Part shown: positions 35,856 to 61,934 of the stretch, piece by piece | Layout of the letters: each line of letters opens with the position of its first letter | How positions within the stretch are numbered: the stretch's first letter is position 1 | From: Streptomyces davaonensis JCM 4913 | GTDB taxonomy: Bacteria; Actinomycetota; Actinomycetes; Streptomycetales; Streptomycetaceae | NCBI RefSeq assembly: GCF_000349325.1 | Contig: NC_020504.1 | Coordinates: forward strand, 8,288,326 to 8,352,325 | Reading direction: 5' to 3' | DNA length: 64,000 nt | Made by a program: the position numbers and the translations under genes | Notes under the pieces: generated by a model | Told to the model about the DNA's origin: nothing | What the model saw: the letters and a program-made list of their open reading frames with translations, nothing else | The model's database searches: none

Positions 35856-38800
35856 TCAGACGACCTGCACGCTCCGGGCGGCGGCATGCCGGCTGCCCAG
35901 GGCCAAGGCCCGCAGGTCGGCTCCGACCGGCGTCAGCGGGTCCGCCGTCGAGTGCGCGAGAGCGAGCAGCAGCCAGCGCGAACCGGGCGCCGCGGCGCTG
36001 AAGTCCACGTCGAAGCCGACCACGGCCGGAGCCCCGGTGACCACGGAACGCGTGGGACGGCGGACCCCGACCGCGGCGTCGGCCACGGTCCAACCGCCCG
36101 CGAGCGGAAGGCCGCCCGGGAGCGCACCGCCCGCCGCGGGCAGGGCGTCCAGGGCCCCACGCAGGGCCGTGAGCGCGGGCCCGGCGGGAAAGGCCGGCGG
36201 GGCGAGTCCCGCCCAGGCGGCCGGCGCGGCAGGCAGCGGCAGGCGCAGCAGGGTCACCGCGGCCGTCGCGGCCCGCACCTCCTCCCGGCCGCGATGGTGC
36301 AGACAGACGTCCACCCGGTAGGGGCGCCGGAGAGCCGCCGCGCTCGCGGGCGAGGTGGCCTTGGCCGTCGGAGGGCCGACGCGCGGGGTGGGCTGGCCCA
36401 CGACGCGCTCGATGAGATCGTGCTCCGTCGGCTCGGCCGCCGCCCACGGGTCGGTCCAGAAGGCGGCCTGGACCTGGGGATGGTTCCACAGCGCGTTGTC
36501 GACGCGCGTCTGGCCGGGCGCGGGGTCCAGGCCGAGGGTGACGCGCACCCCGCGCAGCCGGGACCGCCACCACGCGGTCCACCGCCCGTCGGGGACGATG
36601 AGCGGGTCGACAGCCCGCAGCGCGGTCTGCAGGCTCCACAGCCAGAACCGGTTGGCGGGGGGCGTCGTCCAGGGCAGCCCCGCCGGGCCCGCCGGAACCG
36701 CTGTCGCCGCGCGCGCCGGGCGCAGCCGGATGTCCGGACTGGCGTGCCAGGGGTACGAGCCCACCGGCGTGCCGTCCGGTGCCGGGGCCGGTGTGCCCGC
36801 CCCGGTGCGGAAGTCCCGGTTGCGCCGATCGCCCCAGTCCAGCGGCCAGTCCCGCTCCGGCCGCGGCAGGTGCCACAGGGGATCGCGCGGGTCGGTCGGC
36901 GTGATCCGGCGGCTGTCGTACGGATGGACGCGCAGGTAGGTCGTGGGGGCGGCGTCGACACCGGGCTCGACCTCCCAGACGCCGCGGGCCTGAAGTGCCG
37001 CCCGCAGCAGGGTCAGTGAGCCGCCCCCCGGCCGCGGCCAGCTTCCGATCACGAGGTCCTGCACGGCGGCCTCGGGCAGCCCGGAGACGTACGGCGTCCA
37101 GACCCAGGTGGGTCCCGGCAGGGTCAGGACGCCGCGCCACACGCCGACCGCCGTGCCCACGTACACGATCGACGGGTTGGCGGGATCCACCACCACCGCG
37201 TAGGCGGGCGCGCGGACACCGTCGGGCGGGAGGGGGACCACGGCGGGCAGCGGCGGCGCCGGAGGCACGAGGGTGCCGAGGCGGCAGGGGTGCCAGGTCG
37301 CGTTGCCGTCGAACCACCACAGGGGCTCAAGGGGATGACTGGTCGCGACGTACAGCGACCCGTGGGGTCCGGCGGCAGGGTCGTGCACCGCGAAGTCGTT
37401 GAGTGCCCCGGCGAACGGCAGGGTGGCCGCGGCCAGTGGCCAGGGAAGGGCCGCCGGGGCCACCACCGGTGGGGCGGGGCGCGTCATGATCGTGGTGAGC
37501 GTCCAGGGGCCGACGAGCGCGGGGTTGCGGTCGAGCCGGTGCACGGCCCCGCGCTGGAGGACGTACAGCCGGTCCTCCCCGCCCCAGCGCAGTGCGTGGA
37601 TTCCGTTCGGCCAGGCGAGTGCCCCCAGGGGCAGCGGGCCCGAGAGTGCGGTGAAGGTGTTGGTCACCGCGTCGTTGGCGTCTCCGGCCCGGGGGTCCAC
37701 CGGCGGCGAGGGCACGCCGGGATCCGCCGGAAGGGTGTCCCACAGGCGCTTCCAGATCGCCCCGCTCTGCCAGGACCGGCCCCAGCGCTCGGAGTACCAG
37801 ACGCGGTTGGTGCCGACGGCGAGCTGGGTGACGCCGTCGGCCCGGCGCAGCACGGCCGGGTTGGAGTAGAAGCGGCTGCGGCTGTTCTCCAGACCGAAGG
37901 CCGCGGCGGCGCCGCGCCGGGAGGGCGTGACCTCCGTGTCGCCGTCCTCGAACCACTCGGAGTTGGCGTACTGGGCCACGAAACGGCCGGGGGTGCCGGG
38001 GTCGAAGGCGACGCCGCCCGCGTCGCCCTGGCCCAGCGCACGGCGCCACACCGATTCTCCGACGCGCAGTTGGGCGCCGTTGTCCTGCACTCCGGCGAGC
38101 ACCGGGCCGTCGCTGAGGGGGTGCAGGGCGAGGAAGCCCACCTCGGTGACGGCCAGGCCGGTGGAGCGGGAGGCGAACGTTCCGGGGGCGCCGGCGGCGG
38201 TGGAGCGGAAGACGCCGCCGTCGCAGCACACCCAGACGTGGGCGGCGCCGCCGACCGTCTGCCAGCGCACCCGGTGCACGTCCGCGTGGACCTCCGCGCC
38301 GATCCAGCGGGCGTCGGCGGCGTCACCCGCGACGTAGTCGGTGACGTAGCCGCCCGGCGGGCCGCCGGCCAGGGTCAGCCTGTAGAGGGAGGCCGACCAC
38401 GACCCGTCGTGCGGGCTCGCGGCGGTCGAACCGCCGACGACGACCCGGCTCGCGTTCGCCGGGTCCACCGCCAGGGCCAGGTCGTAGCCCGACTGGTCGT
38501 TGCCCCCGGGCGGCTGGAAGAGTCCCGCGGGCAGGGGCGCGACCGGGGTGGCGATCGCGTTGTCCACCCGCCACATCACGGGGCCGGAGCCGAGGACGTA
38601 GAGCACATCGGGGAAAGCCGGGTCGGCGGCGAGGCCGAGCCGCCGGTGTGCGCCCAGGCCCGGGAGGGCGACCTGCGCGAACGGCCCGGCGGGGCCCGCG
38701 GTACTGAGCCACAGTCCGTCGAGTCCGGCCACGCCGCTGTTGGCGACGGCCACCCACAGTCGGGCCGGGTGCGCTCCGGTCGCCGGGGTCCAGGCGACAT

Positions 38801-39719
38801 CGCAGACGGAGACGCGGGCGCTGGTGCCGGCCGCGAGGGCCTCCCAGGCGGCTACGGTCACCAGCGACCACGGATCCCCGGCGCCGGCCGCGCTCTTCTC
38901 GTGCAGCCCCCGAGTGGTGGCGGCGACCAGATGGCGGTCGTCGGCCGGGTCGGCGGCCACGGTGTACGCACCGGCGCCCCGCAGACCCGGGTACGCGGGG
39001 ACGCCCCCGGCGGCGAGCCGGGGCTGCGCCTGACGGGTCCACGGGTCGATGAGCGGCGTGGTCCGGGAGGTGTGCACCGGACCACGGGCGAAGAGCACGC
39101 CCACCCCGCCGTAGGCCCCACCGGTGCCCGACTCGACCGGCGTCACGCCCCGTGAGCCGGGCTCGCCGGTGAGCAGCCACACCTCGTCGCCCGCCGGGTC
39201 GCCGCCGGCGTCGAAGCGTACGTACACCGCCCCGCAGGTCAGCGAGTGGGAGGCGGCGGCGAGTTCGGCGCGGGCGGCGACCGAGGCCCAGGCGCCGACC
39301 GCCTCCCAGCGGGCTCCCGCGGTGTCCGTGTACCAGAGCCCGCCCGCGGCGGAGGCCGCGTACGCGCGTTGCCCGTCGGGGCTGATCCGCAGATCCCGTA
39401 CGCGCCCGGCCACGCGGGGGTCGCTGTCGGCCTGGCCGCGCAGGGTGCCCGAGGGGCCGACAGGGAGCCACAGATCGCGGTCGGCGTTCGGGCCGCCGGG
39501 CGGCGGTGCCGCCCGGGCGAACCACTTGCGCAGGCGGCGCAGGAGTGTCTCGCGGGGTTCTTGCATGACGACGGGGACAGAGGGGGCCGTTTCGACGGCG
39601 GTGATGTCGCCGGAGCCGGTGGTGAACGAGCTGTTGTGGCGCCTGCGTTCCTCGGCCCGGCCGCGGCGGGCTCCGCGGCCGCCGCCGGGTCGTGCGGCGG
39701 GCCAGTCGTAACGGCTCAA
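35856..39719 (-). CDS. Large beta-propeller-like protein (Asp-box/BNR character), last gene of the giant-protein operon
   Basis: 1,287 residues. The start is a TTG at 39719 overlapping the TGA of the preceding gene (TTGA), with GGGGAG upstream. The N-terminus is basic (RGARRGRAEERRRHN) and no signal peptide is seen. Residues about 90-930 contain repeated propeller blades: RDLRISPDGQRAYAASAAGGLWYTDTAGARWEAVG, AADPAFPDVLYVLGSG, VWVCCDGGVFRSTAAGAPGTF, RVWYSERWGRSWQSG, IVYVGTAVGVWRG. These resemble sortilin/BNR Asp boxes. The C-terminal 350 residues are of unknown fold. No catalytic residues can be assigned. It probably binds a partner of the same operon. Confidence 0.8.
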   Translation of the reverse strand: MSRYDWPAARPGGGRGARRGRAEERRRHNSSFTTGSGDITAVETAPSVPVVMQEPRETLLRRLRKWFARAAPPPGGPNADRDLWLPVGPSGTLRGQADSDPRVAGRVRDLRISPDGQRAYAASAAGGLWYTDTAGARWEAVGAWASVAARAELAAASHSLTCGAVYVRFDAGGDPAGDEVWLLTGEPGSRGVTPVESGTGGAYGGVGVLFARGPVHTSRTTPLIDPWTRQAQPRLAAGGVPAYPGLRGAGAYTVAADPADDRHLVAATTRGLHEKSAAGAGDPWSLVTVAAWEALAAGTSARVSVCDVAWTPATGAHPARLWVAVANSGVAGLDGLWLSTAGPAGPFAQVALPGLGAHRRLGLAADPAFPDVLYVLGSGPVMWRVDNAIATPVAPLPAGLFQPPGGNDQSGYDLALAVDPANASRVVVGGSTAASPHDGSWSASLYRLTLAGGPPGGYVTDYVAGDAADARWIGAEVHADVHRVRWQTVGGAAHVWVCCDGGVFRSTAAGAPGTFASRSTGLAVTEVGFLALHPLSDGPVLAGVQDNGAQLRVGESVWRRALGQGDAGGVAFDPGTPGRFVAQYANSEWFEDGDTEVTPSRRGAAAAFGLENSRSRFYSNPAVLRRADGVTQLAVGTNRVWYSERWGRSWQSGAIWKRLWDTLPADPGVPSPPVDPRAGDANDAVTNTFTALSGPLPLGALAWPNGIHALRWGGEDRLYVLQRGAVHRLDRNPALVGPWTLTTIMTRPAPPVVAPAALPWPLAAATLPFAGALNDFAVHDPAAGPHGSLYVATSHPLEPLWWFDGNATWHPCRLGTLVPPAPPLPAVVPLPPDGVRAPAYAVVVDPANPSIVYVGTAVGVWRGVLTLPGPTWVWTPYVSGLPEAAVQDLVIGSWPRPGGGSLTLLRAALQARGVWEVEPGVDAAPTTYLRVHPYDSRRITPTDPRDPLWHLPRPERDWPLDWGDRRNRDFRTGAGTPAPAPDGTPVGSYPWHASPDIRLRPARAATAVPAGPAGLPWTTPPANRFWLWSLQTALRAVDPLIVPDGRWTAWWRSRLRGVRVTLGLDPAPGQTRVDNALWNHPQVQAAFWTDPWAAAEPTEHDLIERVVGQPTPRVGPPTAKATSPASAAALRRPYRVDVCLHHRGREEVRAATAAVTLLRLPLPAAPAAWAGLAPPAFPAGPALTALRGALDALPAAGGALPGGLPLAGGWTVADAAVGVRRPTRSVVTGAPAVVGFDVDFSAAAPGSRWLLLALAHSTADPLTPVGADLRALALGSRHAAARSVQVV

Positions 39720-42700
39720 CTCTGCTCCCCGGTGGTGTCGGGCGGGGCGGTGTCGGGTGCGACCCTGATCCAGCCCTCGCGCAGTACGCAGGCGCGCTCC
39801 GGCAGCAGCGCGGCCTGGGTGGCGGCGAGGATCGCGTCGTCGCGCCAGCCCAGCGGGCCCTCACGGGTGGTCAGCCGCTGCCGGTCGCCCAGGGCGGCGA
39901 CGAGGGGCAGCCGGACGTCGCCCGGGTCCAGGAGCACCGGTCCGATCCGTACGGACGGCGAGAGCCGTTCGAGCCCGGGGGCGAACCAGGCCCGCGACAG
40001 CCGTAGCGCGGTGCGCGGCACGACACCCGCGGTGACGTGGACGGCGGAGCCGGGCAGCATGAGCAGGGTGACCAGCCGGGGGACGCCGGGGCGCAGCCGG
40101 ACCACGTCCTCGGCGTGCAGATAGGGGTGACTGATCGGGTCCTTGGCCGGCAGGGCCGGGGTTTCGCTCCAGGTGCCGAGGTGGCCCCGGCCACGACCGG
40201 ACTCCCGGGCCAGGTCGGCGACGACGCGGTCCACGAGATGGACCCGGCCGAAGTCCCCGTCCAGGAAGTAGCCGAGCAGCCCGTCGTCGCTGCGGGTGAT
40301 CTCGCCGAGCCGTACCGGGATGTCGTGGCGGGCCAGGTCCCGGTAGGCCGCTTCCCGGGCGGTGCGTCCGGCCGCGTCGAGTTCGAGCGCGTCGAGGTCG
40401 TCGGCGACGTCGAGGGTCAGGGTCGCGGTCACGACGGCCACGGGGCGTCCGACGATCCCGCCGACCGCGGAACTCCCGGCTCCGGAGACCGGGTCGACGG
40501 TCCACAAGGTCGTGTCGACGGCTCGCAGGAAGGCGGAGAGCGCGGACTCGCGGACCGGTTGCGGGTCGGCGGCGGCGTCCGCCGCGGTGCGGCCCGCGCG
40601 GGCGGTGGCGTCGGCGGCGACCATGCCGGCCGCGAGCCTGCCTAGCACCGCCTGGGCGGGCGGCAGGTCCGCGCCGGGGGGCCGCGGTCCTGGGGGAAGC
40701 GGGCGGCCGGGTGCGGGTTCCCAGGTCACTCCGCCGCCCACCGGTTCGACGAGCAGTTCACCGAGGGGCGTTCCGTCGGCGGAGAACACCTCGACGGATT
40801 CGTCGACGTGATCCGGCAGCAGGAATCCGGCGACCGGATTGACCTGCGCACCCGGGTCGATCTCGTCCACCCGCGCGGGGACCGCGCCGTCGGCCGTGGT
40901 CGCCGCCGACGACACCGGGCGCAGTCGACAGCGGGCGGGCGCGGTCAGCCGCGGCGGTCGGCGCAGGGTCGCCGGGGCCGCGCCCGGTACCTCGAGCCGG
41001 GAGGGCACCACAGCGGTGGCCGGATCGAGATCCAGGGTGCGTCCGAAGGCGTCGACGATTCGGGCCCGGGTCAGCTCGGCCGTACCGGAGGCGAGCAGCC
41101 GGGGCAGGCCCGTCGGGGTGGGGCGCTGGGGATGGCCGGCCGGGTCCCGGGTCCGGACACCGGAGACCGGTAGCCCGAGCAGGGCCGATCGCACCCCGTC
41201 CAGCGCGGCGCCGAGCAGGTCGAGGGAGCCGGCCGCGGACGCCAGCGCGTGCAGGCGGTCTCGGGTGGCCTGGTCGATCTCGCCGATGCCTTGGCGGTCG
41301 CGTTCGTCCTCGTCCGCCACGTACCGGGCGACGGCTCCGGCCAGGATCTCGGCCGGGCCGGTGGTGAGCGGCACTCGGAGCGCGACCGTCGTGGTGTCGT
41401 GGACGGCGGGGCCCTGCGCCGAGGCGGCTGGCTCCAGGTCGACGGGGCCCGGCTGCCAGCCGGTGAGTTCGTCCGGCGGCGCGGCGCTGTCCAGCCGCAC
41501 CTCGCTCTCCAGCCACAGGGGCACCCAGGGCTGTGCCCAGGCGGTGATCGCCACGGGATCGGGTTCGACGCCGTTCAGCAGCGAATGCCTGCGCAGCCGT
41601 TCGGCGACGACGTCGCGGGCGGCCGCGCCGCTGCCCTGGACCGCGTCGACGGGTCGCGGCACCGCGGCCACGGACAGCCCGGATGCGGCGGTGTAGGCGC
41701 CCGCGTCGTCGTAGCGCAGGGCCAGTTCGGCGGCGATACGGGTCAGGACGCCCTTGGGGTCGAGGCCGACCGCCGACGCGGCGCCGACGCGGGCGAGCCA
41801 GTGGCCGAGGTAGGGGGCGAGCAGCAGGGCCTCGGCGGCCAGGGCGACGGCCTCGGGCGGCAGTGCCCCGGAACCCAGGCTCCGCAGCAGGTCGGAGCCG
41901 GCCACCACGCCGTCGTACCCACTGACGATCTGCGTGGGGCGGCGCACGCCCAGCCGGGCGTCTTGGCTGCCCCGCCCGTCCTTGCCGTGCCGCAGGCTGC
42001 GGCCCGCCCCGGCGACGGCGACGACCGGGTCGCTGGGCACGTACCGGCGCGGGGCGGGCCGCTGGACGATCTCCTCTCCCGGGCCGGTGTCCGCCGCCGG
42101 AACCCCGCCTGCCGTGCCGCCGGGGGAGCCAGGCTGTTGGGCCGCGGTCTGCCACCGCTCCTCCTCGGCGAGCAGCCCGCGGACCTTGCGTGTGGCGAAG
42201 GACAGGGTGACCTTGCCGACGATCTTGTCCACGCCCCCCTTCCCGACCGCGCTGGCTGTACGCCTGGTGCGCGGGGGGACGGTCGCCCGGCCGGTGCGGA
42301 CCCGGTCGGTCTCGGCGGGCTCACCGGGGTCGACCGAGGTGAACCCGGCCGCGTGCCGGGCCTGGTCGACCTCGGCGAATCCGTCGGGGCTGCCGAGGCG
42401 GGGCATCAGCCGTGAGGTGAACGCGACGAGCAGCCGCTCCGTGGCGGCCCTGGAGTCGTCGGAAAGACCCATTCCGGTGGCGGCCAGCGCACCGGCGACC
42501 TCGTCCGTGCAGTCGCCGAAGGCAAGCCGGGTGGCGCCGGGGGCGGGCCGTGGATCCGTGCCCGGCGCACCCATGACGGGGACTCCGATCACGGCCCCGT
42601 GCAGCAGAGTCGAGGCCTCGGCGCCGGGATCCCGGCCGGGCCGGATCAGACGGGCGTGTGCGGCGAGGCTCGCCGGAGCCTCGCGTACCGCGTGCCGGGC

Positions 42701-43708
42701 GACGTCGTCCAGGGCGGTGCCCTGAGCCGACGCCCAGCGGCCGGCGTGCCGCAGTCCGACGGTCCCGGCGCGCTTGGCCTTGCCCGTCTCCTTTCCGCTC
42801 TGCCCGCCCGTGCTGTGGCCGGCCCCCGGCAGCAGCCGCCAGGACAGTGCGGTGAGCCGCTCGCCGAGCCCGCCCTCGGTGCGCACCTCGTCGAGCGGAT
42901 CGAGCTCGGGGTCTGACCACCAGCCGACCACCAGATACGTGGCCTTCCCGCCGACCGGCCCGCCCGGGACCGCGCCGCCGAGGGTCGGGTCCGAGAGCAC
43001 GTCATCGAGTGGATCGTGCCAGGCGAACCGGCCGAAGGCGGCGTCGTATCCGCCGGTCCAGGTGAGCGAACCGCCGGCTGCTCCGGTGAGCCCCGCCTTG
43101 GGGACAACGGGCGCCGAGGGCAGCGGCATCGGCGTCCCGGCGGGGTACTGCGGCAGGTCCCAGGCGACCGCCTTCGAGGCGTCGAGCACCCAGCCGCGCA
43201 CCGTCACCGGAGTGGCCGTACCGGTGGCCGCGCCCTCGGCTGCCAGCAGCCGGAGCACCGCCCACCGGTCGGGGAGCGGGGGCAGGCCAAGACCGCCGCC
43301 CGCCGCGTCCGGGCCGGCCGGGGCCGGTGCGGGGGTGCCGGGCTCGCGGGGCGGGCGGGGGTCGCGCAACTGCCCGCGCAGCAGCGTGTCGGGCAGCGCC
43401 CAGTGCAGGTGGACCCCGGCCGGGCGGGGGGTGCCTGGGTCGAAGGGCTGCGGACCGTCGAGCACCTGTGCCGAGGCGGTGGCGCCTGGTGTGAGCGGCC
43501 CTGGCAGCCGTACGGCGGGCTCGCCCCCGTCCGGTACGACCAGCGCCTGGACGTCCACGGGCACCAGCACCCGGGGCTCGCGCAGGAGATCCGGGTCCCA
43601 GGTGCGGACCTCACCGACCCGGAGGTCCGAGCGGACCAGGGCGCTCCAGGAAGCCGTGAACTGCCGTCCGGCGACGGTCCGCGGGTCGTACACCGGCTCG
43701 GGTGCCAT
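39716..43708 (-). CDS. Large protein of unknown function, fifth gene of the giant-protein operon
   Basis: 1,330 residues. The ATG at 43708 (or GTG 43711 just before it) overlaps the upstream TGA and follows GGGGAGG. No signal peptide or membrane helix is visible. Conserved-looking stretches include GVHLHWALPDTLLRG near residue 98, LPPLPDRWAVLRL, GYDAAFGRFAWHDPLDD, ATYLVVGWWSDPELDPLDEV, and a C-terminal LVTLLMLPGSAVHVTAGVVPRTALRLS. I remember similar motifs only from uncharacterised bacterial proteins. Pro, Gly and Val content and short strands suggest an all-beta structural role. It probably forms a complex with its neighbours. Confidence 0.8.
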   Translation of the reverse strand: MAPEPVYDPRTVAGRQFTASWSALVRSDLRVGEVRTWDPDLLREPRVLVPVDVQALVVPDGGEPAVRLPGPLTPGATASAQVLDGPQPFDPGTPRPAGVHLHWALPDTLLRGQLRDPRPPREPGTPAPAPAGPDAAGGGLGLPPLPDRWAVLRLLAAEGAATGTATPVTVRGWVLDASKAVAWDLPQYPAGTPMPLPSAPVVPKAGLTGAAGGSLTWTGGYDAAFGRFAWHDPLDDVLSDPTLGGAVPGGPVGGKATYLVVGWWSDPELDPLDEVRTEGGLGERLTALSWRLLPGAGHSTGGQSGKETGKAKRAGTVGLRHAGRWASAQGTALDDVARHAVREAPASLAAHARLIRPGRDPGAEASTLLHGAVIGVPVMGAPGTDPRPAPGATRLAFGDCTDEVAGALAATGMGLSDDSRAATERLLVAFTSRLMPRLGSPDGFAEVDQARHAAGFTSVDPGEPAETDRVRTGRATVPPRTRRTASAVGKGGVDKIVGKVTLSFATRKVRGLLAEEERWQTAAQQPGSPGGTAGGVPAADTGPGEEIVQRPAPRRYVPSDPVVAVAGAGRSLRHGKDGRGSQDARLGVRRPTQIVSGYDGVVAGSDLLRSLGSGALPPEAVALAAEALLLAPYLGHWLARVGAASAVGLDPKGVLTRIAAELALRYDDAGAYTAASGLSVAAVPRPVDAVQGSGAAARDVVAERLRRHSLLNGVEPDPVAITAWAQPWVPLWLESEVRLDSAAPPDELTGWQPGPVDLEPAASAQGPAVHDTTTVALRVPLTTGPAEILAGAVARYVADEDERDRQGIGEIDQATRDRLHALASAAGSLDLLGAALDGVRSALLGLPVSGVRTRDPAGHPQRPTPTGLPRLLASGTAELTRARIVDAFGRTLDLDPATAVVPSRLEVPGAAPATLRRPPRLTAPARCRLRPVSSAATTADGAVPARVDEIDPGAQVNPVAGFLLPDHVDESVEVFSADGTPLGELLVEPVGGGVTWEPAPGRPLPPGPRPPGADLPPAQAVLGRLAAGMVAADATARAGRTAADAAADPQPVRESALSAFLRAVDTTLWTVDPVSGAGSSAVGGIVGRPVAVVTATLTLDVADDLDALELDAAGRTAREAAYRDLARHDIPVRLGEITRSDDGLLGYFLDGDFGRVHLVDRVVADLARESGRGRGHLGTWSETPALPAKDPISHPYLHAEDVVRLRPGVPRLVTLLMLPGSAVHVTAGVVPRTALRLSRAWFAPGLERLSPSVRIGPVLLDPGDVRLPLVAALGDRQRLTTREGPLGWRDDAILAATQAALLPERACVLREGWIRVAPDTAPPDTTGEQS

Positions 43709-48184: not shown

Positions 48185-51100
48185 CGGCGGGGCTGCGCCG
48201 CCCGCGGTCGGCGAGCAGGCCGGCCGCGGCGTCCAGCCGGGCCTGTGGCCCCGCGGCGACAGGCTTGAGGGCGGCGAGGTCGGCCACCTCGCGGAGCACC
48301 TGGAGGCGCCGGTCGTCGTCCTCGACGATCAGCGGATTGAGTCGTCGCGGTCCCGTCTCGACCTGCCGGTACTCGATGGCCGGGCCGCCCGCGGGAACCT
48401 GCGCGAAAGCGCGCAGCAGCACGCGGTCGGTGGCGCTGACCACCTCGCCCTCCGGAACGGTGGGGCGGGAGAGGTCCTGGGCCGCGCCCCAGGCGCCGAC
48501 GGGGAAGGCGCCGAGCCGCTGCGCGGTGGCGGTCAGCCGCCCGATCCGGTCGACAGCGCCCGTCGGCGGACCGACCAGACGCAGCGTCAGGGCCGGATCG
48601 GCGGGGCCGGGCAGGGCCATCGGGGCCACCGACACCACACGGTCCGCGGGCAGGTCCCGGGCGGGGCCGCCGGCCACCAGGCGGCGCAGCGGCACGGTGC
48701 TCGTCACCGTCAGCTCGAACTCGGCGACGACCCGGAAGGGCCGGTCCACCGTGCCGTCCGGGCTCTTGGCGCCCGCGCTGCCGGAGGACCCCGCGGGGGG
48801 CACCGCTCCGGCACCGGGCACCACCGCGAGCACGCGGGCCACTCCCGGCGCGGCCTGCTCCAGGTACTTGGCGACGAAATCGTCCCAGGCCAGCGGGCGG
48901 GGACGGTCGTTGGATTCGCCGATCTCCAGGGTGAGTCCCACCGGCCCGACCTCGAAGCGGGCGACCGCGCGGAACGGCGGCCCGGTCACCTCGACCTTGG
49001 CCGAGAGGTGGACCGAGATGGTCACCTCGCAGAACCACAGGTCGATGGTGACCCCGGCGTCGATGGAGGCGTACACGGTGACGCTCAGCCAGAACGGATC
49101 GAAGAAGACGATGCCGTCCGCGCCGAACACGGCGTGCGCCCAGCCCGGTCCGAGCTCGGCCGACACCTCGACCCGGGTGCCGGCCATCACCGCCTCGGAC
49201 GTCAGGGCGAAGTACGCCTCACCGGTCACCGAGACGGAGTCGCCGAGGCGCCAGGCCAGCCCCAGGCGCGGCACCACCGGGTAGCCGTCACGGTGGAAGT
49301 CCGGGTGGTAGCCGCCCATGGTGACGACGAACTGGCCGCGGTTCGGGCCGGACAGCCAGGAGGCGAAGGCGAAGCCTCCGGTGAGCCGCACGTCCTCGGA
49401 CAGCAGCCAGGAGTTGTCGGTCAGCTGGGCCTGGACCAGGATCACGCCCTCGCGCGTGGAGAACCGCGCCACGAGTGCCATCTCGACATGGACGAGCGCG
49501 GCCTGCGGGCGGGGCAGCGCCATCCGGGCGAGTCCGAGCAGGCTCAGCTCGATCCCGTTCCCGACCTGAAGGGCGACGACGGCGACGCCGTCCACGAGGG
49601 CGAACGACGTGAAGGAGAGTCCGGCGGCGAACCAGAACGTGCCCCGCTCGGGGGCGAAGTAGGAGCGGGCGTGGGCGAGTTCCTCGAACGGTTCGCCCGC
49701 ACGGGCCGACGGGTCCAGCGCCTTGATCAGCGGGAAGCTGTCGAAGGCGGAGAGATCGGCGGGCAGCGACAGTGACCGGTTGATGCCGAAGCCGCCGCCG
49801 ATGCCCGTGACGAAGAAGGCCGGGGGACCGCCGATGGGCCCGTTCACCGCGCCGAACAGGAACAGCGACGCGTAACGGTCGTCCTCCGGGCCGACCAGCC
49901 CGTAGCCGCCGTAGACGGAGAGCCCGTACACCGCCATCCGGGCCGTCAGCATGCCCAGGTACTCCACACCGCCCTCGGAGGGCGTGAAGCGGCGGAGCCC
50001 CCCGGCGAGCGTGACCCCGCCCACGTCGGCCGCGACCGCGAAACCGGCCAGGTCGACACGCCAGTTGGCGGGGGTGAACGGTGAACCCCCGCCTGCCGCC
50101 AGGTAGGTGAGGGAGAGGTCGTCGACCGCGGCGGACAGACCGAGCAGGCTCACCCGGCCGTCGATCAGGACGCCGATGCTCTCGATGCCGGTGGACCCCC
50201 CGACCACGGCCAGCCCGACCTGCTCCAGGTAGACGGGCCCGTACTGGCGTTGCACGGTGAGCCACCAGGGCCCCGAGCCCGGCCCGGCGGTCAGGCTGAG
50301 GAGCAACGGCCCGCCCTGGTGGCGCTGTACGGACACGGCGGGACTGAACCGCGGTGCGGGCGCGGCGTCGTCGGTGCCCGCCTGGGACATCAGCCCCTGG
50401 GCGACGGGGTTGTCGCCGCCGGTGGCGCCCGCCAGCGGCACGCCGAGCCCGGCGAGTTCCAGGCGTACGCCACCGGCGAGGGAGACGGACGATCCCTGCG
50501 GTGCGATCGCGGCGAACAGGTGGAGGCCGATGTCGGCGATGGTCACGCCGGCGTCCAGCAGCGGCCCGCCGGAACGGGCGAGGCGCACGCCGAGACCGCC
50601 GACGGTGAGCCCGGGCCGTGGCTCGGGGTCGCCGACGGCGGGCAGGGCCAGGACCTCGACGGTGAGTCCCGCGGGCACCGGGCCGCCGGGCGCGGCGATC
50701 CAGTGGGCGTCGTTCTCCAGGCTGACGACAAGGTCGGCATCGGGGTTGAGTTCCCAACGGCCGTCGACGGCGAGGGACAGACCCAGCACCCGGGTGGTGC
50801 CGTCGAGGCGCTCGTGGGCGCGCAGGGTGAGCCGGCCGTCGATGGGCAGCGCCGCGCCGGGGGCCGCGGCGAGATGCCCGGCGAGGGCGCCCAGGCGCGC
50901 CAGCAGGCGCGGCGGGTCGGCGAGTTCCCCGGCCAGCGCGGGGTCCAGCCGAGTGGCGTCCCCGGCTTGGAAGAGGACGCCGTCGAGCACGGCGTCCACC
51001 TGAGTGCCCAGTACGGGCCGGGACAGCGCGGCCTGCACGGCGGGTACGGCCAGCACGACACCGCCGGCGAGGTCGAGCAGCGCCCCGACGGCGACCCGCG

Positions 51101-54100
51101 CCACATCTGCGGGCGCGACCGACTCCGGGAGCTCGCCGGGACCGGTCGCCACCAGCCGGAAGGCGCCCGCGTCCAGGTCCCAACGGGCCACCAGCCGCTG
51201 GTCGGTGCCGACGCCGAGTCCGGTCTCGACCAGTCGTCCGGTACTGGACGCGGATCCGGTGCGGACGCGAGCGAAGGGCGTCAGGGTGAGAATTCCGGCG
51301 CTCAGCGGTGCCGGGCCGAGCTCCAGGTCGAACAGGGCGAGTCCGGTGGCGTCCACGGCGGCCTCGGCGGTCAGCCGCTCGACGCCGGGAAGACCGGTCA
51401 GCGTCACGGCCGCCTCCACAGCGGCGGTGCCCGGGCGCCAACGCAGGGTCAGCGGGCCCACGTCCAGGACGAGAGCACCACCGGACACGCCCACCGCACG
51501 GGACGGCAGCGCGCCGAGGAGCGGAGTGACCGCCTCGCCGATCAGGGTGAGGCCGTCGGCAGCGAGGGCGGCCCCGCGGGCGGCGAGCGCGGCGGCCGGG
51601 TCGGTGCCGAAGGCGGACAGCGCGGCGGCGTCGAACCGGGGTGGGCTGCCGACGCGCAGACCGAGCGCGTCTCCGATCCGGGTGACGAACCGTCCCGCGG
51701 CCTCGGCGGCGGAGGCGGGGGCCGCGGCGGGGTCCTGCGCCGCGAGCGCGTCGAGCAGGGCGGGCAGCGCGGCGACGGCACCGGCGGTCGCGGCGTCCAC
51801 CAGGCCTCCCAGCCCGGGTCCGTGGGGCAGCAGCGCGATGTCGGGGCGGCCCTCGGGGGAGAGAGTGAGCGTGACTCCGACGGCGTCACCGGCGCCGCCG
51901 GCTTCCGGGCCGACCCGTAGCCGTAGCGCACCGACGCCGCTCAGCCCGAGGGCGATCCGTACGTCCGGCAGCGGCGCGGCGTCGGCCGGATCCGCGACGG
52001 CGAGGGACAGGCCCGCACCGCCGGTCAGCCGCAGCGTCGGCCCGCCGGGCGACGCGGTGAAGGCGCTCGCGTCCAGGTCGAGGGAGACGCCGACCCGGCC
52101 GTTCGCGCCACTGCTCGTGAGCCGTACGCCGTCCGCGAGTTGCACGGTGCCCCGTGGGGCTCCGGTCCCGCCGAACAGTCGGCCCACGGCGTCGATCAGC
52201 GCCGGAACGGCCAGGCCCGGGCCGCCGGGCAACGCGCGCAGCCAGCCCGCCGGGTCGGCCAGCAGGTCGTGCACCGGGCCCAGGGCACGCGCGAGTCCCG
52301 CGACGGGGCCCGCCGGGGCCGCCGGAGCGGGGGCGAGCAGCCCCAAGGCATCGAGCAGGGCGTCCACCGCTTCGGCGCCGGTCGCGGAGAGCGAGGCCAA
52401 GGACTCGCGGGCCGCCTCCAGGACCGCCCCGAGGGCCAGTCCGGGCAGCACCTCGCCGATCGCGTCGAGCAGTTGCGGGGCCGTGGGCGCGGGCCACAGG
52501 GGCGTGGTGCGTACCGCGGGCCCGGCCGCGCCGGGCAGGCGCCGGTGGAGCGCGGCGGTGAGCCCGGCGGCGTCACCCCGGATCACCAGGGCGGTGCCGG
52601 GTGATGTGGCGGAGGTGTCCGGGTCGGCGCCGATCCGCAGCGTGCCGCCGATGCCTGCCGGCCCGGCCGCGACGCCCACGGCCCAGGGCAGCCCCGTAGT
52701 GCCCTTCGCCGTGACGGACAGTGCGGGGGTCCGTAGGTCGAGGCGGGCCGCGAACTCCCCTGCCGTGCCGAACCGCAGGTCGACGGTGCTGCCGGCATCT
52801 GCGCGGGGATCCGAGGCGAGCGTCCGGAGCGCGGCGGCGAGCCGGTCGCGGCGTGCCGGGTCGGTGCGGGCGGCGGACACCACGGAGGCGGGGTCCAGCA
52901 GCAGCCGCTCCAGCGTGACGGCGTCGGCCCCGCCCTGCGGCCCCAAAACTCCCAGGGAGGTCAGCGCCTCGCGCAGGGCGGCCATCGGCGGGTGGGCGCC
53001 GGATTCGGCGGTGATCCGGGCCGCGATCTCCGCGATCAGCGCGCGGACTTCGGGGAGCAGCGGGGTGGCCGCGCCCTCGGCTGTGTGGGTCGCGCCCGGC
53101 TCGACCAGCCAGCGGTCGCGGGTGATCCCGAAGGCGTGTGCCTCGTGGAGGACCAGCCGGATGTGCGCCACGGTCGGGGCGAGAGGGGTGGTCCAGGAGC
53201 GTACGGGCAGCAGGACTTCGCAGGTCAGTCGTCGGCAGGCCAGGGTCCGGGCCCCGCCCGAGGCGCGGCCCGGGTCAGGACCGCCGACCAGCCACCCGTG
53301 CGCGGCGCCGAGTTCCAGCCGGACACGTACGGCGGGGCCGGTGGGGGGTGCGGCGGTGCCCGTGTCGTCGCGCGCGACCGCGGCGAGTTCGAATCCGGCG
53401 TGCACGGCGGCGGTGAGTCCACCGGGGCCCACGGGCAGGTCCAGCGGCAGCGACAGCCCGGCGTACAGCGGGCCCGCGGTCCCCGGCAGGCCGGCGCTCT
53501 CCCGGTCGCGGGCCCGGGCCCGGGCCGCGAGGGAGGCGGCCACCACCGAGGTGAGCGCGCGGCGCAGCGCGGGGGCGGACAGAGCTCCGACGACCGCGTG
53601 CACGGACACTCCGGCAGGTGCGCTCAGCCCCTCCGGCGGACGCAGATCCGCCAACGGGTCCTGATACGCCTCCCGGTCGAGCAGCGCGGCGACCGCCGCG
53701 CGGGCCAGCGCCAGGTCGGCGTCGTCGTCCTCGCCGGAGTCGGTGGCCGTGTCCGCGGGGTCGGCGACGGCAGCGTCGGCGGTCCGCAGCAGCGCGGCGA
53801 ACAGACGCAGCGCCTCACCTGCGGGCACGGCGTCCAGTGTGTCGAGGGCCACCGGTGACCAGGGAGTGCCGACGGTCACCACGGCCCGCACCCCGGTGAG
53901 CCCCGCCACCGCTCGCAGGGCCGCGTGACCGGCGCCGCCGTGCGCCACGACGACCACGTCGGTGCCGGGTCCGGTGAGTGGGTCGAGCACCCGGCGCAGG
54001 CGACCGGCCTGCGCCGCCACCCCGTCGTCCGGGCCGCCGGCTCCGGTGGCCGTACGGCAGGCCGCCCGGGTGCCGAGAGCCACGGCCCACAGCGGCTGCG

Positions 54101-57029
54101 GGGCGGCCCCGGCGGGTGGTCCGGCGAAGGCCTCCGGGGGCAGCGCGGGGGCGGTGAGGTCGATGACGCGCTCGGAGGGCAGACCGGCGATGGCCGGCCC
54201 GGTCAGGACGTCGGGTGCGCCACCCCGGTCCCGGCCGCCGATCGCTACGAGGACGACTGTCCCTGGGGCGCCCCCGAGGTGCTCCTGCCACAGCTGGTCC
54301 AGCACCTCGCCCAGCTCCGGTCCGGCCAGCGGTGTCCCGTGCGGGAGGTCGGCGGGCCGGTGGACGGTCACTCCGGTCGGGGCGGCACCGTCGGGAAGGG
54401 CCACCAGACCGTCGGTCCCGCACCACCGGTCCATCAGGTCCTCGGCGCCGGCCACCAGGTCGCCGCGGGCGGCGAGCAGATCGGCGAGCAGGTCGTCGAG
54501 CTCGGTCTCCCGGGCGAGTTCGGCGATCAGCTCGGCCGTGCCGAGCCCGTCATCGCCGGGCAGCCAGGCCCGTAGCGCGGGTGTCACCAGGCTCGGCGGC
54601 TCGATCACCGCCTTGCCCAGGCTGACGGAGAGCGCAGGGAGTTGCCGCGCCGGGTCCGGCGTCCCGAGGGCGCGTACCAGCGGGACCAGCCAGGGCCGGG
54701 ACTCGATCCCTCGACCGCTCGGCGCGCCGTGCGCGAGGGCCTCGGCGAGGAGGACGAGCAGCGGCCGGAGCGTCTCCTCGTCCCTGACCAGTGCGGTGGC
54801 GAAGGCACCCAGAGCGGCGGCGGGATCGGCGACGAGGTCCGCGAGCGGCAGCAGGCCGTTCCCGTGGGCGGAGCCGGTCGGCACGGGCGTCCCCGGTGCC
54901 CAACCGAGCAGTACGGCGAGCAGGGCGGGCCAGGCCTCGCCGGTGCGGGCCGCTGTCTGCTCGGCGAGTACGCCGACGATCCGCTCCGCCGCCGCCCACC
55001 CGGCCGCGTCGAGGTCGAGCCGGCCGGCCGCATCGAGGGCGAACTGCGGGATCCGCACCTCCTGTCCGTCGGGCAGGAGCAGACGGGCTCCGGCGAGCAC
55101 CGGCAGGACGCGAGCCCTCGACTCCGGCGACCAGGTGAGTTCGGCGCCCAGCACCGGGGCGGTCACGACCAGACCCCCGGTGCCCCAGCGCAGCGGTGCC
55201 CCACCCGGACCGGACAGGCCGAGGGAGAGCCGCAGCCCCGGCAGGAAGGCGGCGGCCGCGTCGTCGAGGGAGAACGTCACGACGGAGGCGAGAAGACCCA
55301 GGGCCGCGTCGGCGCCGCTCCCGCCGACGTCGTTGACGCGCACGGCCGCCTCGATACCCAAGGTGAGCCGCGCAGCGTCGGCGGTGACGAGGACGGCGAC
55401 GCCGGGTGCCAGCGGAACCCGCCACGGTGCGGCGTCCGTTCCACTGCCGGTGACGGCGTCGGTGCGGACCCGGGCATCGGCGAGTGCGTCGCGGGCGGCC
55501 TCGAGGACGGTCGGCACATCGGCCGCGTGGGTGGCGAGGAGCCCGCGCCACCGCTGCCGCACGGCGCCGACAGGATCGCGCAGCAGCTCTGCCGCGTCCA
55601 CGAGGGGGACGCCGGCGGCGGAGGCCGGGGCGGAGAGTCCGATCAGCACGGACACCGCGTCCCCCGCCGCGCCCAGCCCGGTCAGCAGTGCGGCGGCGGC
55701 ATCGCGGACGGCCTGGCCCGCCACGGCGGCGATCGCGTCGGGGGTGGAGAGGTCGAGGCGGTCGTAGTGGGTGGTGCCGATGTCGGCGTTCTCGGCCTCG
55801 ACGACGAGGACGGGACGGCGCCCGGCGTCGAGCGCGACGCCGACCCGCAGCGCTCCGACGGCGATCCGCATGCCGTTCGGCCCGGTGACGGGCGGCAGCA
55901 CTCCGGCAGGCGGGGCCAGCTGTCCGGTCAGCGCCAGCCGTGGCAGGGCCACGGCGGTTCCGCTGCCCAGGTCGAGGGTGAGGAGATCGCAGGAGAGGGA
56001 GAGCCGGGTGTCGGGTCCGCCGGCCACGCCCGCGGACAGCCGCGGCACGACCACGGGCCGGCCGGAGGGGCCGGGGCCGACCAGGACGTCGAGGCGCACG
56101 GCCGTACCGGCCACGGTCAGCTCCACGCCGGCGCCGCCGGTTCCCGGGACCACCGTGCCGCCGAGCAGTTCGGCCAGTCCCGCGGCCCACGCGGCCTGGG
56201 CCGGTCCGGTGACGGCCTCGGCGAACCAGTCGGCCAGCGCGGCCGGTCCCGCTGTGGCCAGCCGGGCGACGGGGAAGTCGGGAACGGGGCCGGTGGTGAG
56301 GCCGAGCACGGTCGCGAGTCCGCGCAGCGGCGAACCGGCGGGCAGCGTGGCGACTTGGGCCCTCACCAGCCCCAGGACCAGTTCCAGCAGGGCGTCGTCG
56401 AGGTCGTCGAGGTTGTCGACGTCGACGACGAGGTCGCGTGGCGCCCCGGCGCCGGGCAGGCGCAGTCCGCCGAGTGCGAGCCGTACGGAGGCCGGTTCGC
56501 CGGCGCTTGTCGGCACCCGGGCGGCGAGTACGGCCGAGGTCAGCTCGACGCCTCCGGGCGCGGTGCCACCGGGCAGCCCCACGCGCAGCGAGATCTCGAC
56601 CGGCGCGTCGGCGCTGCCGATCAGGACCGGGTCGGCGACCGGGGCGGTGCCGGCGGCGAGGAAGAGGGGTGCGTGGGCCTCGATCCGGCAGTCGACGCCC
56701 CCGGAGGACACCCCTACCCGGACACCGGCGCCGACCCGTACCGCTGCGCCGTCCCGGGTCTCCTGGAGCGTGGCGAAGAGCTGGAAGGTGCCGTCCTCCA
56801 CGTCGACCAGCGGCAGCCAGGCGCGACCGCCGTCGTCGGTCGTAGCGTCGGGCCCGCCGAGCAGTTCGTCGACGAACTCGACGAGGGCCCCGCGCTGCAC
56901 GGGGTTGGCCAGCAGCCGGGAGAGATGGCGGCCGGGATCGGCGAACCAGGACGGCTCCGGCTGTCCGTCGGCGCGGAGCAGTCCGAGGGCCTTGGCGAGG
57001 ACGGCGAGGTCGCCGAGATCGAGACTCAT
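47637..57029 (-). CDS. Giant protein of about 3,400 residues (DUF6603-like region), frame breaks at 48145-48151
   Basis: The ATG at 57029 overlaps the upstream TGA (ATGA). Genuine coding extends to about codon 2,959, where a G7 run shifts the frame; the Arg-rich remainder to 47637 is not credible. No signal peptide. Residues 1-900 are alpha/beta-rich units ending in helices such as AVAGQAVRDAAAALLTGLG. Residues about 925-1060 resemble an alpha/beta hydrolase, with AHGGAG (1029-1034) where GHSxGG is expected and then VTVGTPW, so the nucleophile Ser is missing. Residues about 2,370-2,650 (FFVTGIGGGFGINRSLSLP, FWFAAGLSFTSFALVDGVAVVALQVGNGIELSLLG) recall DUF6603 proteins. It is the main component of the six-gene operon; function unknown. 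Confidence 0.78.
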   Translation of the reverse strand: MSLDLGDLAVLAKALGLLRADGQPEPSWFADPGRHLSRLLANPVQRGALVEFVDELLGGPDATTDDGGRAWLPLVDVEDGTFQLFATLQETRDGAAVRVGAGVRVGVSSGGVDCRIEAHAPLFLAAGTAPVADPVLIGSADAPVEISLRVGLPGGTAPGGVELTSAVLAARVPTSAGEPASVRLALGGLRLPGAGAPRDLVVDVDNLDDLDDALLELVLGLVRAQVATLPAGSPLRGLATVLGLTTGPVPDFPVARLATAGPAALADWFAEAVTGPAQAAWAAGLAELLGGTVVPGTGGAGVELTVAGTAVRLDVLVGPGPSGRPVVVPRLSAGVAGGPDTRLSLSCDLLTLDLGSGTAVALPRLALTGQLAPPAGVLPPVTGPNGMRIAVGALRVGVALDAGRRPVLVVEAENADIGTTHYDRLDLSTPDAIAAVAGQAVRDAAAALLTGLGAAGDAVSVLIGLSAPASAAGVPLVDAAELLRDPVGAVRQRWRGLLATHAADVPTVLEAARDALADARVRTDAVTGSGTDAAPWRVPLAPGVAVLVTADAARLTLGIEAAVRVNDVGGSGADAALGLLASVVTFSLDDAAAAFLPGLRLSLGLSGPGGAPLRWGTGGLVVTAPVLGAELTWSPESRARVLPVLAGARLLLPDGQEVRIPQFALDAAGRLDLDAAGWAAAERIVGVLAEQTAARTGEAWPALLAVLLGWAPGTPVPTGSAHGNGLLPLADLVADPAAALGAFATALVRDEETLRPLLVLLAEALAHGAPSGRGIESRPWLVPLVRALGTPDPARQLPALSVSLGKAVIEPPSLVTPALRAWLPGDDGLGTAELIAELARETELDDLLADLLAARGDLVAGAEDLMDRWCGTDGLVALPDGAAPTGVTVHRPADLPHGTPLAGPELGEVLDQLWQEHLGGAPGTVVLVAIGGRDRGGAPDVLTGPAIAGLPSERVIDLTAPALPPEAFAGPPAGAAPQPLWAVALGTRAACRTATGAGGPDDGVAAQAGRLRRVLDPLTGPGTDVVVVAHGGAGHAALRAVAGLTGVRAVVTVGTPWSPVALDTLDAVPAGEALRLFAALLRTADAAVADPADTATDSGEDDDADLALARAAVAALLDREAYQDPLADLRPPEGLSAPAGVSVHAVVGALSAPALRRALTSVVAASLAARARARDRESAGLPGTAGPLYAGLSLPLDLPVGPGGLTAAVHAGFELAAVARDDTGTAAPPTGPAVRVRLELGAAHGWLVGGPDPGRASGGARTLACRRLTCEVLLPVRSWTTPLAPTVAHIRLVLHEAHAFGITRDRWLVEPGATHTAEGAATPLLPEVRALIAEIAARITAESGAHPPMAALREALTSLGVLGPQGGADAVTLERLLLDPASVVSAARTDPARRDRLAAALRTLASDPRADAGSTVDLRFGTAGEFAARLDLRTPALSVTAKGTTGLPWAVGVAAGPAGIGGTLRIGADPDTSATSPGTALVIRGDAAGLTAALHRRLPGAAGPAVRTTPLWPAPTAPQLLDAIGEVLPGLALGAVLEAARESLASLSATGAEAVDALLDALGLLAPAPAAPAGPVAGLARALGPVHDLLADPAGWLRALPGGPGLAVPALIDAVGRLFGGTGAPRGTVQLADGVRLTSSGANGRVGVSLDLDASAFTASPGGPTLRLTGGAGLSLAVADPADAAPLPDVRIALGLSGVGALRLRVGPEAGGAGDAVGVTLTLSPEGRPDIALLPHGPGLGGLVDAATAGAVAALPALLDALAAQDPAAAPASAAEAAGRFVTRIGDALGLRVGSPPRFDAAALSAFGTDPAAALAARGAALAADGLTLIGEAVTPLLGALPSRAVGVSGGALVLDVGPLTLRWRPGTAAVEAAVTLTGLPGVERLTAEAAVDATGLALFDLELGPAPLSAGILTLTPFARVRTGSASSTGRLVETGLGVGTDQRLVARWDLDAGAFRLVATGPGELPESVAPADVARVAVGALLDLAGGVVLAVPAVQAALSRPVLGTQVDAVLDGVLFQAGDATRLDPALAGELADPPRLLARLGALAGHLAAAPGAALPIDGRLTLRAHERLDGTTRVLGLSLAVDGRWELNPDADLVVSLENDAHWIAAPGGPVPAGLTVEVLALPAVGDPEPRPGLTVGGLGVRLARSGGPLLDAGVTIADIGLHLFAAIAPQGSSVSLAGGVRLELAGLGVPLAGATGGDNPVAQGLMSQAGTDDAAPAPRFSPAVSVQRHQGGPLLLSLTAGPGSGPWWLTVQRQYGPVYLEQVGLAVVGGSTGIESIGVLIDGRVSLLGLSAAVDDLSLTYLAAGGGSPFTPANWRVDLAGFAVAADVGGVTLAGGLRRFTPSEGGVEYLGMLTARMAVYGLSVYGGYGLVGPEDDRYASLFLFGAVNGPIGGPPAFFVTGIGGGFGINRSLSLPADLSAFDSFPLIKALDPSARAGEPFEELAHARSYFAPERGTFWFAAGLSFTSFALVDGVAVVALQVGNGIELSLLGLARMALPRPQAALVHVEMALVARFSTREGVILVQAQLTDNSWLLSEDVRLTGGFAFASWLSGPNRGQFVVTMGGYHPDFHRDGYPVVPRLGLAWRLGDSVSVTGEAYFALTSEAVMAGTRVEVSAELGPGWAHAVFGADGIVFFDPFWLSVTVYASIDAGVTIDLWFCEVTISVHLSAKVEVTGPPFRAVARFEVGPVGLTLEIGESNDRPRPLAWDDFVAKYLEQAAPGVARVLAVVPGAGAVPPAGSSGSAGAKSPDGTVDRPFRVVAEFELTVTSTVPLRRLVAGGPARDLPADRVVSVAPMALPGPADPALTLRLVGPPTGAVDRIGRLTATAQRLGAFPVGAWGAAQDLSRPTVPEGEVVSATDRVLLRAFAQVPAGGPAIEYRQVETGPRRLNPLIVEDDDRRLQVLREVADLAALKPVAAGPQARLDAAAGLLADRGRRSPADVAAWRADRAAAPPARLPRRGSRRSAARGRRPRYRPAARPRTRRATPSGRPCPAERPRGTGRWLGARPDRGGRRDPACRYVRLAAPAGGAERGRLRAAFDRGPRLRSFGRRTGEAAAAAGRGPGRRHHCARGPRTAPDRHSGGGRRDPGGPHRRPCGHPQAGGVRRGAGRAGRLARRHDRRG

Positions 57030-57742
57030 GGGCGGACCGGGCCGGGCGCCGGGGCGAAGGCGACCTGCCCTTGCCGGACCCGGTCCACCGGGTGGCGCGC
57101 CTGAGCCTGCACCGACAGGCCCTCCCGGTCGGCGGTCAGCGCGGCCGGGACGAGGGCGGTCCCGTCGGTGTCCCGGCCGGTGGCGGCGGCCAGAGCGCCG
57201 ACGGTGTCCAGCACGGCCCGCCACGCGAGCGCCGCCAGCGCGTCGCCCCAGCGGCGGATCACCACGGCAGGCCCGCGCGGTTCGGAGGTCGCGGCGAGCA
57301 GACCCGTGGGCCGCCGCGCCGAGCCGACCACGAACTCCACCTCGACAACGGCCCGCCCGTGCGGGACCTGATCGCAGCGCACCGGCACCAGGACGGTGAC
57401 CAGACCGGTGGCGAACCGCGTGGCGACGGAGCCGACTTCGACGAGCAGGGCATCGGCGCCCTCGCGCCACAGCACGGCGTGCGGCAGCTCCTCCGGTTCC
57501 GGCGTCGGACGCCCGTCCGCGCGAAGGACCGCGGCCTGTCGCGCGGCAAGGTTGATCAGCGTGGCGGCCCGCTTCGGGTCCGTGAGAACGGGCTCGGCCG
57601 TTTCCCCCGGCCGCAGCGGATCGTCGGGCAACAGCCCGGGGCACCGACTCCGCACGAGCTTCAGCAACCGCGCACAGGCCTCGTCCAGCGGGGCCGCCGG
57701 CTCGTCGGCATGATGGCGGGACTCGGGTGTCCGCTCAGCCAT
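57026..57742 (-). CDS. Unknown protein, first gene of the giant-protein operon
   Basis: 238 residues from the ATG at 57742 (MAERTPESRHHADEPAAPLDEACARLLKLVRSRCPGLLPDDPL); a TTG three codons upstream is possible. The core alternates helix and strand (LINLAARQAAVLRADG, LLVEVGSVATRFATGLVTVLVPVRCDQ, GRAVVEVEFVVGS, AVVIRRWGDALAALAWRAVLDTVGALAAA). No domain recognised, no signal or membrane segment. Its stop overlaps the giant gene's start. The 146 bp upstream are A/T-richer than average and should contain the operon promoter, which I could not define. Confidence 0.75.
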   Translation of the reverse strand: MAERTPESRHHADEPAAPLDEACARLLKLVRSRCPGLLPDDPLRPGETAEPVLTDPKRAATLINLAARQAAVLRADGRPTPEPEELPHAVLWREGADALLVEVGSVATRFATGLVTVLVPVRCDQVPHGRAVVEVEFVVGSARRPTGLLAATSEPRGPAVVIRRWGDALAALAWRAVLDTVGALAAATGRDTDGTALVPAALTADREGLSVQAQARHPVDRVRQGQVAFAPAPGPVRP

Positions 57743-59097: not shown

Positions 59098-59143
59098 GCC
59101 TCCGTCAGTCCTCGTTCGGTGAGCGTACGGTCGCCGTGTCCCG

Positions 59144-60589: not shown

Positions 60590-60604
60590 CGGGGCTCTCC
60601 TCTT

Positions 60605-60654
60605 GTGCGGCTGTGCGGCTGTGCGGCTCGTGTTGTGCGGCTGTGCGGCTCGTG
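60605..60654. repeat. Tandem GTGCGGCT octamers in the xylB leader
   Basis: GTGCGGCT occurs three times without gap (60605-60628) and twice more (60635-60650) after CGTGTT. Seen as a larger unit, a 20-bp sequence ending CTCGTG is repeated at 60613-60632 and 60635-60654. It lies 15 bp upstream of the xylB start and would be transcribed in its 5' leader. Confidence 0.75.
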
Positions 60655-60696
60655 CCCTGTCGGGGGCAACTGTTCTCTTCCCAGAGATGCCCCGGC

Positions 60697-61934
<1,238 letters not shown>

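Follow-up and report, generated by a model that had tools for sequence, protein, structure and literature searches.

A block of six overlapping genes, A to F, is, as judged from sequence comparison, a real and conserved multi-gene system for giant proteins, which the searches made did not match to any known machine. The joint travel of genes A to E as a block and the presence of proteases in the last position in relatives suggest a shared, seemingly undescribed protein machine. Our leading reading, to which we give a little less than an even chance, is an operon that moves horizontally and encodes a single multi-protein assembly, in which A to E would form a scaffold and the last position a swappable hydrolase or binding end. 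More than 7,000 residues without known function are encoded by the coupled genes, which are conserved among relatives and have moved from one lineage to another. We found no published description of such a system among the titles and abstract openings of the open-licence literature, and no paper there under the name or accession of the sole named family represented, DUF6603 (PF20248). If the products form one assembly, it would be a large bacterial structure of a new kind, its enzyme parts exchangeable; as the core comprises only four genes and is present in genera of soil and water that can be cultured (Variovorax, Pseudoxanthomonas, Arthrobacter, Aliiroseovarius), the proposal is directly testable.

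Organization of the locus

The window is the whole 64-kb stretch of DNA that was analysed, and all positions refer to it unless another locus is named. The block occupies its minus strand from 57742 to 35856 (Table 1). An earlier note, made from the letters of the sequence, had described six coupled genes here, and their coordinates, strand, order and sizes are all borne out by our analysis. Adjacent genes overlap at all five junctions (A/B, ATGA; B/C, TGATG; C/D, GTGA; D/E, GTGATG; E/F, TTGA), the D/E overlap offering either GTG or ATG as the start of E, and codon-position base composition agrees with the assigned frames of A to F.

Table 1. Features of the block in window coordinates
Feature	Position	Strand	Description
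Gene A	57026..57742	-	238 aa; small partner, without named family
Gene B, first frame	48151..57029	-	~2,960 aa of ~3,400 aa; N-terminal repeats; DUF6603 at aa 2259-2731
Gene B, frame break	48145..48151	-	Seven consecutive C on the minus strand
Gene B, second frame	46814..48151	-	C-terminal ~445 aa
Gene C	44736..46814	-	692 aa; corresponds to the N-terminal part of fused C-D in reduced loci (hhalign)
Gene D	43708..44739	-	343 aa; corresponds to the C-terminal part of fused C-D (hhalign)
Gene E	39716..43711	-	1,330 aa; 40-67% identity to 119 other listed relatives, most near full length
Gene F	35856..39719	-	1,287 aa; propeller-like as judged from relatives; at the variable place; window copy without hydrolase module

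The size given earlier for B stands, but B is not a single open gene in this sequence. The frame that opens at 57029 runs into the wrong frame after about 48150, and the homologous C-terminal part lies in a separate open reading frame (48184-46814); correspondingly, positions 6-2810 of the B profile map to the first open reading frame and positions 2804-3197 to the second, and codon-position base composition shifts near the break. Since the site is the sole G/C run of at least seven bases within the window, a sequencing or assembly slip is the likely cause, judging from the sequence. The upstream stretches of 14 of 15 relatives cross the corresponding site in a single frame, the remaining one (L073) stopping short of it, and in another locus (L074) B is split at a different place, near profile position 1745.

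A simple hydropathy scan agrees with the earlier claim that the proteins bear neither signal peptides nor membrane helices, none being clear in the six window proteins, where the highest 19-residue mean (2.05) lies inside B. In some relatives, however, the 19-residue mean of B, D, E or F slightly exceeds 2.0, and one B sequence in 15 begins with a hydrophobic stretch, so that describing these proteins as soluble is uncertain.

Conservation of the block and its reduced form

A profile built from 27 E homologues identified 23 loci in named genomes, among them Burkholderiales, Pseudoxanthomonas, Aliiroseovarius, Arthrobacter, a Holophagaceae MAG and a Gemmatimonadota MAG. In 18 of these loci the four genes from B to E follow one another in order; the other five (L024, L026, L027, L029, L032) are cut off by a contig edge within E or immediately upstream of it and so cannot reveal the order. 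Three further divergent blocks (G738, G1146, G1533) each hold the same four genes in order. Flanking genes outside the block, compared by eye, vary between genomes, and B-C-D-E is the smallest recurring core. Gene A lies directly before B in all 15 E-holding genomes searched (505 homologues found, 120 listed), and the order A-B-C-D-E is the same in Actinomycetota, Pseudomonadota and Acidobacteriota. The A homologue of G1146 is the one relative seen with a strong N-terminal membrane-helix-like stretch. For E, 342 homologues were found among 7,993 candidates scored; the first of the 120 matches listed is the window's own protein, and most of the rest cover at least 97% of the query. Comparison of relatives indicates that purifying selection acts on C, D and E, with dN/dS between 0.04 and 0.36 in 12 of 12 gene-pairs.

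Within the window's own family, a D-like match was present in 14 of 120 other genomes. The 20-kb neighbourhoods of nine of them, and of one genome of the same class, were analysed, and eight of the ten contain a reduced form consisting of B, a fused C-D and E, with DUF6603 open reading frames of 940-1,810 residues. Profile comparison with hhalign relates its parts to those of the window: C to the N-terminal part of the fusion (E 3.8e-44), D to its C-terminal part (E 1.5e-43) and the window-type E to that of the reduced loci (E 2.9e-87). The fused gene is split in two open reading frames in L085, L091 is without E and L095 is degraded; the DUF6603 protein of L089 was detected both by BLAST and by the core profile. 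Proteins of mixed kinds are encoded near the genes of three reduced loci (L090:13825-16122, L091:196-4055, L092:4867-6681): a LamG protein, a peptidase whose M91-like match narrowly misses the cut-off, and metallo-beta-lactamase-like proteins, of which one passes the cut-off and one does not. The window's own genome carries a second DUF6603 locus (L096, C1:321000-340900) encoding a DUF6603 protein of about 960 residues, beside which lie unannotated proteins of at least 1,187 and of 533 residues with no Pfam match and no clear hhalign relation to E.

The earlier note had proposed genes occurring independently in other genomes as a test of the coupled system, and the outcome is divided. DUF6603 is present in 12 of 396 genomes in a sample of the phylum, nine of which show no D, and the domain is thus not confined to the block, whereas B-C-D-E stand together in 18 of the 23 loci named above.

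Family and predicted fold of the gene products

Searches of Pfam and NCBIfam gave nothing above cut-off in the six genes except DUF6603 in B, which scores 394.1 bits against a Pfam cut-off of 27 (E 1.1e-117). The B core (aa 2100-2907) was modelled from an alignment of 24 sequences with pLDDT 76 and pTM 0.58, and is predicted to consist of dozens of strands, many of them 10-18 residues long, linked by short turns. The best Foldseek match is the outer-membrane protein SlpA (2.4e-5), with ApoB100 second and FimD and LptD also among the matches; with TM-scores of about 0.1-0.25 and VIA rmsd of about 11-15 A, the fold is barrel-like at best. The two faces of the predicted strands differ by 2.54 hydropathy units, compared with 1.14 after shuffling (sd 0.15), the strands being those of the model itself. 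Because these strands have one greasy face, the model fits a B protein that contacts lipid or some other hydrophobic surface, which one being left unspecified. The first ~2,000 residues of B contain repeats spaced at about 220-240 residues (the best pairs reach hhalign probabilities of 96 and 87).

The model of a naturally fused C-D protein (L090; 26 rows, pLDDT 74, pTM 0.51) is mixed alpha/beta with sandwich-like parts, and Foldseek, at a threshold of 0.001, matched it to nothing in PDB or BFVD. The beta-rich composition attributed to these proteins in the earlier note agrees with the model of the B core and does not extend to this C-D relative.

Variable position after gene E

Twenty loci could be read beyond E, comprising 18 of the 23 E-profile loci, G783 and the window. 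F follows E in 17 of them and a second type of gene, G, in 11, and no locus lacks both. No F match was found in the reduced loci, in G738 or G1533, or in three of the 20 readable loci. Constraint on F differs between the two pairs compared (dN/dS 0.065 and 0.65), being weak in the latter.

Modules resembling hydrolases occur in some F proteins of relatives. F has a serine-hydrolase-like end in four of the 20 loci and an internal astacin domain in two (best E 1.6e-44). The serine-hydrolase-like end spans 360 residues and contains SxxK and YxN motifs, present as SLLK and YVN in all four copies; three F members out of 15 match Pfam Beta-lactamase2, at best with E 1.7e-4 and, where scores are shown, under the cut-off, and a search with one copy of this end gave no PDB match. 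Asp-box-like motifs number one to three in each of the 14 other aligned F members, against a shuffled mean below 0.5, and BNR_6 matches one of 15 members weakly. The window F has no Asp-box-like motif, no Pfam match and no enzyme module, and an NCBIfam glycosylhydrolase match to it lies far below cut-off. In the variant block of G1146 (L136:5383-6159 and L137:3539-6676), in which A has the helix-like start, the gene after E encodes a Sortilin-Vps10/BNR protein above cut-off with ASH-like repeats (3.5e-16).

G, which is absent from the window, where only F follows E, resembles the M12A astacin myroilysin (5e-56 over 201 residues for one G member), and the single member scanned against Pfam, that of L017, scores 28.6 bits for Astacin against a cut-off of 22.5. 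The zinc site HExxHxxGxxH and an N-terminal Cys are both present in G at 11 of 11 distinct loci, the Cys being the only one of the protein in two of them. Myroilysin has a cysteine switch, according to PMC9848320, and we infer by analogy that the Cys of G may act as a switch of the same type.

Some reduced loci have unannotated proteins after E (L105:13650-15047, L089:4332-4835, L095:13673-14476), which are alike at their start when compared by eye (Y-S/T-L ... P) and are possibly a further family for this position.

Distribution, transfer and insertion site

The block is rare. In counts that include the centre genome each time and for which few candidates per genome were scored, the D profile matched four of 396 genomes in the phylum (including a weak match in G157, 2.4e-4), three of 399 in the order of Variovorax, and two of 297 and two of 289 in two further groups. 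A FastTree phylogeny of E places Arthrobacter among Burkholderiales with support 0.993, and the Holophagaceae MAG, which could be mis-binned, beside Variovorax with support 1.0; both placements, together with the shorter site in sister genomes described below, speak for horizontal transfer of the block.

In the window, the block lies directly behind a xyl locus (57889-61934) made up of a ROK regulator, a xylulokinase and a xylose isomerase. The insertion site was compared in 14 of 60 other genomes, chosen for a close ROK gene. The distance from the xylR-like ROK gene to a DhaR-like gene is 0.5-4.0 kb in 11 of these 14 sister genomes, which do not have the block at this site, compared with 26.7 kb here; the other three have no DhaR-like neighbour within 17 kb. 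On the right side, homology starts no more than about 15 bases from the ROK gene stop. The G+C content of the block is 0.767, against 0.704 for window positions 1-32500, and at third positions it is alike in the block (0.904) and in four flank genes (0.911). The earlier interpretation of the locus is upheld in part: a conserved multi-gene system of giant proteins is supported, while fixed stoichiometry and a particle released by lysis would be hypothetical features of it. The earlier note had passed over the frame break in B, the hydrolase modules of relatives and the insertion behind the xylR-like regulator.

Proposed model and alternative explanations

Under our leading reading of one scaffold with an exchangeable end, the giant protein B, with its two-faced strands, would serve as the framework and would bind or enter a lipid or other hydrophobic surface, with A positioning it, C, D and E completing the scaffold and F acting as the recognition or working end. 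The assembly of such a complex, its location, release and target are what we infer from the genes. Because no export signal is visible in the window proteins and the G Cys resembles the myroilysin switch, the complex would probably be built in the cytoplasm with latent enzymes and act across a membrane or once the cell has lysed. The scattered distribution and the possible latency of the proteases make it likelier that its use would be in conflict with other organisms or in digesting them. The window copy would bear a recognition end only; since it lacks an enzyme module and its B is broken, it may be non-functional in the form sequenced. A bolder version, which we consider more doubtful, is a new class of mega-assembly in which the A-E scaffold surrounds a ~3,400-residue lipid-active beta protein, the end cassette is reloaded with latent hydrolases or binding modules, and the whole is passed between phyla and used against other organisms or to digest them.

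The same strands may serve a peaceful purpose. B could wrap lipid, a storage granule or hydrophobic cargo, in the manner of the ApoB100 beta belt or a bridge-like groove, the other proteins organising the surface and the hydrolases processing the cargo, with no attack on cells. The second place of ApoB100 in the Foldseek search, the strongly two-faced strands, the repeats along the first part of B and the membrane-helix-like start of A in one relative all speak for such a carrier, but the TM-scores of the B core are low, and a rare, scattered distribution and proteases after E would be unusual for housekeeping storage; we regard this explanation as unlikely. Pore-forming delivery, in which the DUF6603 core would close into a large candidate barrel, insert in a target membrane and pass F or G, could draw on the dominance of barrel proteins among the fold matches and on the protease, perhaps under a cysteine switch, that 11 of 20 loci encode. 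It seems to us improbable, as no known toxin family was matched, the core model is barrel-like at best and the window copy is without a cargo enzyme.

The block may instead be a neutral island of decaying or passenger genes in this genome, the frame break in B marking its loss; that 11 of the 14 sister genomes lack the block here would suit such a history. We hold this to be quite improbable, since there is a single break, situated where a sequencing slip is likely, genes A, C, D, E and F are open, and relatives are under constraint. Finally, a contractile injection system, Tc-like complex or secretion system could have diverged beyond recognition by sequence, and large cytoplasmic assemblies do exist in Streptomyces, as PMC10066040 and PMC12237407 report. 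A clear match to a known machine, which the earlier note had named as grounds for refuting its own reading, was nevertheless found neither by sequence nor, for the parts modelled (B core and C-D), by fold. The only machine name to appear was type II secretion protein K, in the last part of B, at a chance-like E of 0.02, below cut-off. PADLOC anti-phage defence models gave no match up to E 1, PHROGs gave few matches, all at E 0.077 or worse and none informative, and E had no match in phage records. Searches up to E 1 returned no sheath, tube, baseplate or ATPase family of contractile injection systems (Pfam, NCBIfam and PHROGs, seven pieces), no RHS repeats or Tc families, and no gas vesicle protein families (Pfam and NCBIfam for the latter two). 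DUF6603 being the one family above cut-off, we consider a divergent known machine very improbable indeed.

Comparison with known systems

The large cytoplasmic assembly that we propose would share its general nature with the cytoplasmic contractile injection systems of Streptomyces, as these appear in the reports cited above, but the families that define them are not among these genes. With the DUF6603 family B shares its domain, which in the phylum sample occurs mostly in genomes without a D match. In the B core model, the resemblance to outer-membrane beta-barrels and ApoB100 is at the level of fold only and consists of numerous long strands that are mostly greasy on one face; B differs in its low TM-scores, in having no sequence relation in PDB and in the absence from the window copy, by hydropathy scan, of the export signal of outer-membrane barrels, a hydrophobic start being found in the one B sequence of 15 mentioned above. 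The two-faced strands and repeats of B might suit a bridge-like lipid transfer protein with a repeating beta-groove, a shape that is not seen in the model. At the variable position, the window F differs from Sortilin/Vps10 and BNR propellers in its sequence motifs, but the Asp-box-like motifs of the F proteins of relatives and the G1146 protein in the same place recall them. The G proteins of relatives, in turn, differ from myroilysin in having no signal peptide by eye and a PPC-like end that falls below cut-off, but are like it in sequence, in zinc motif and in the conserved N-terminal Cys.
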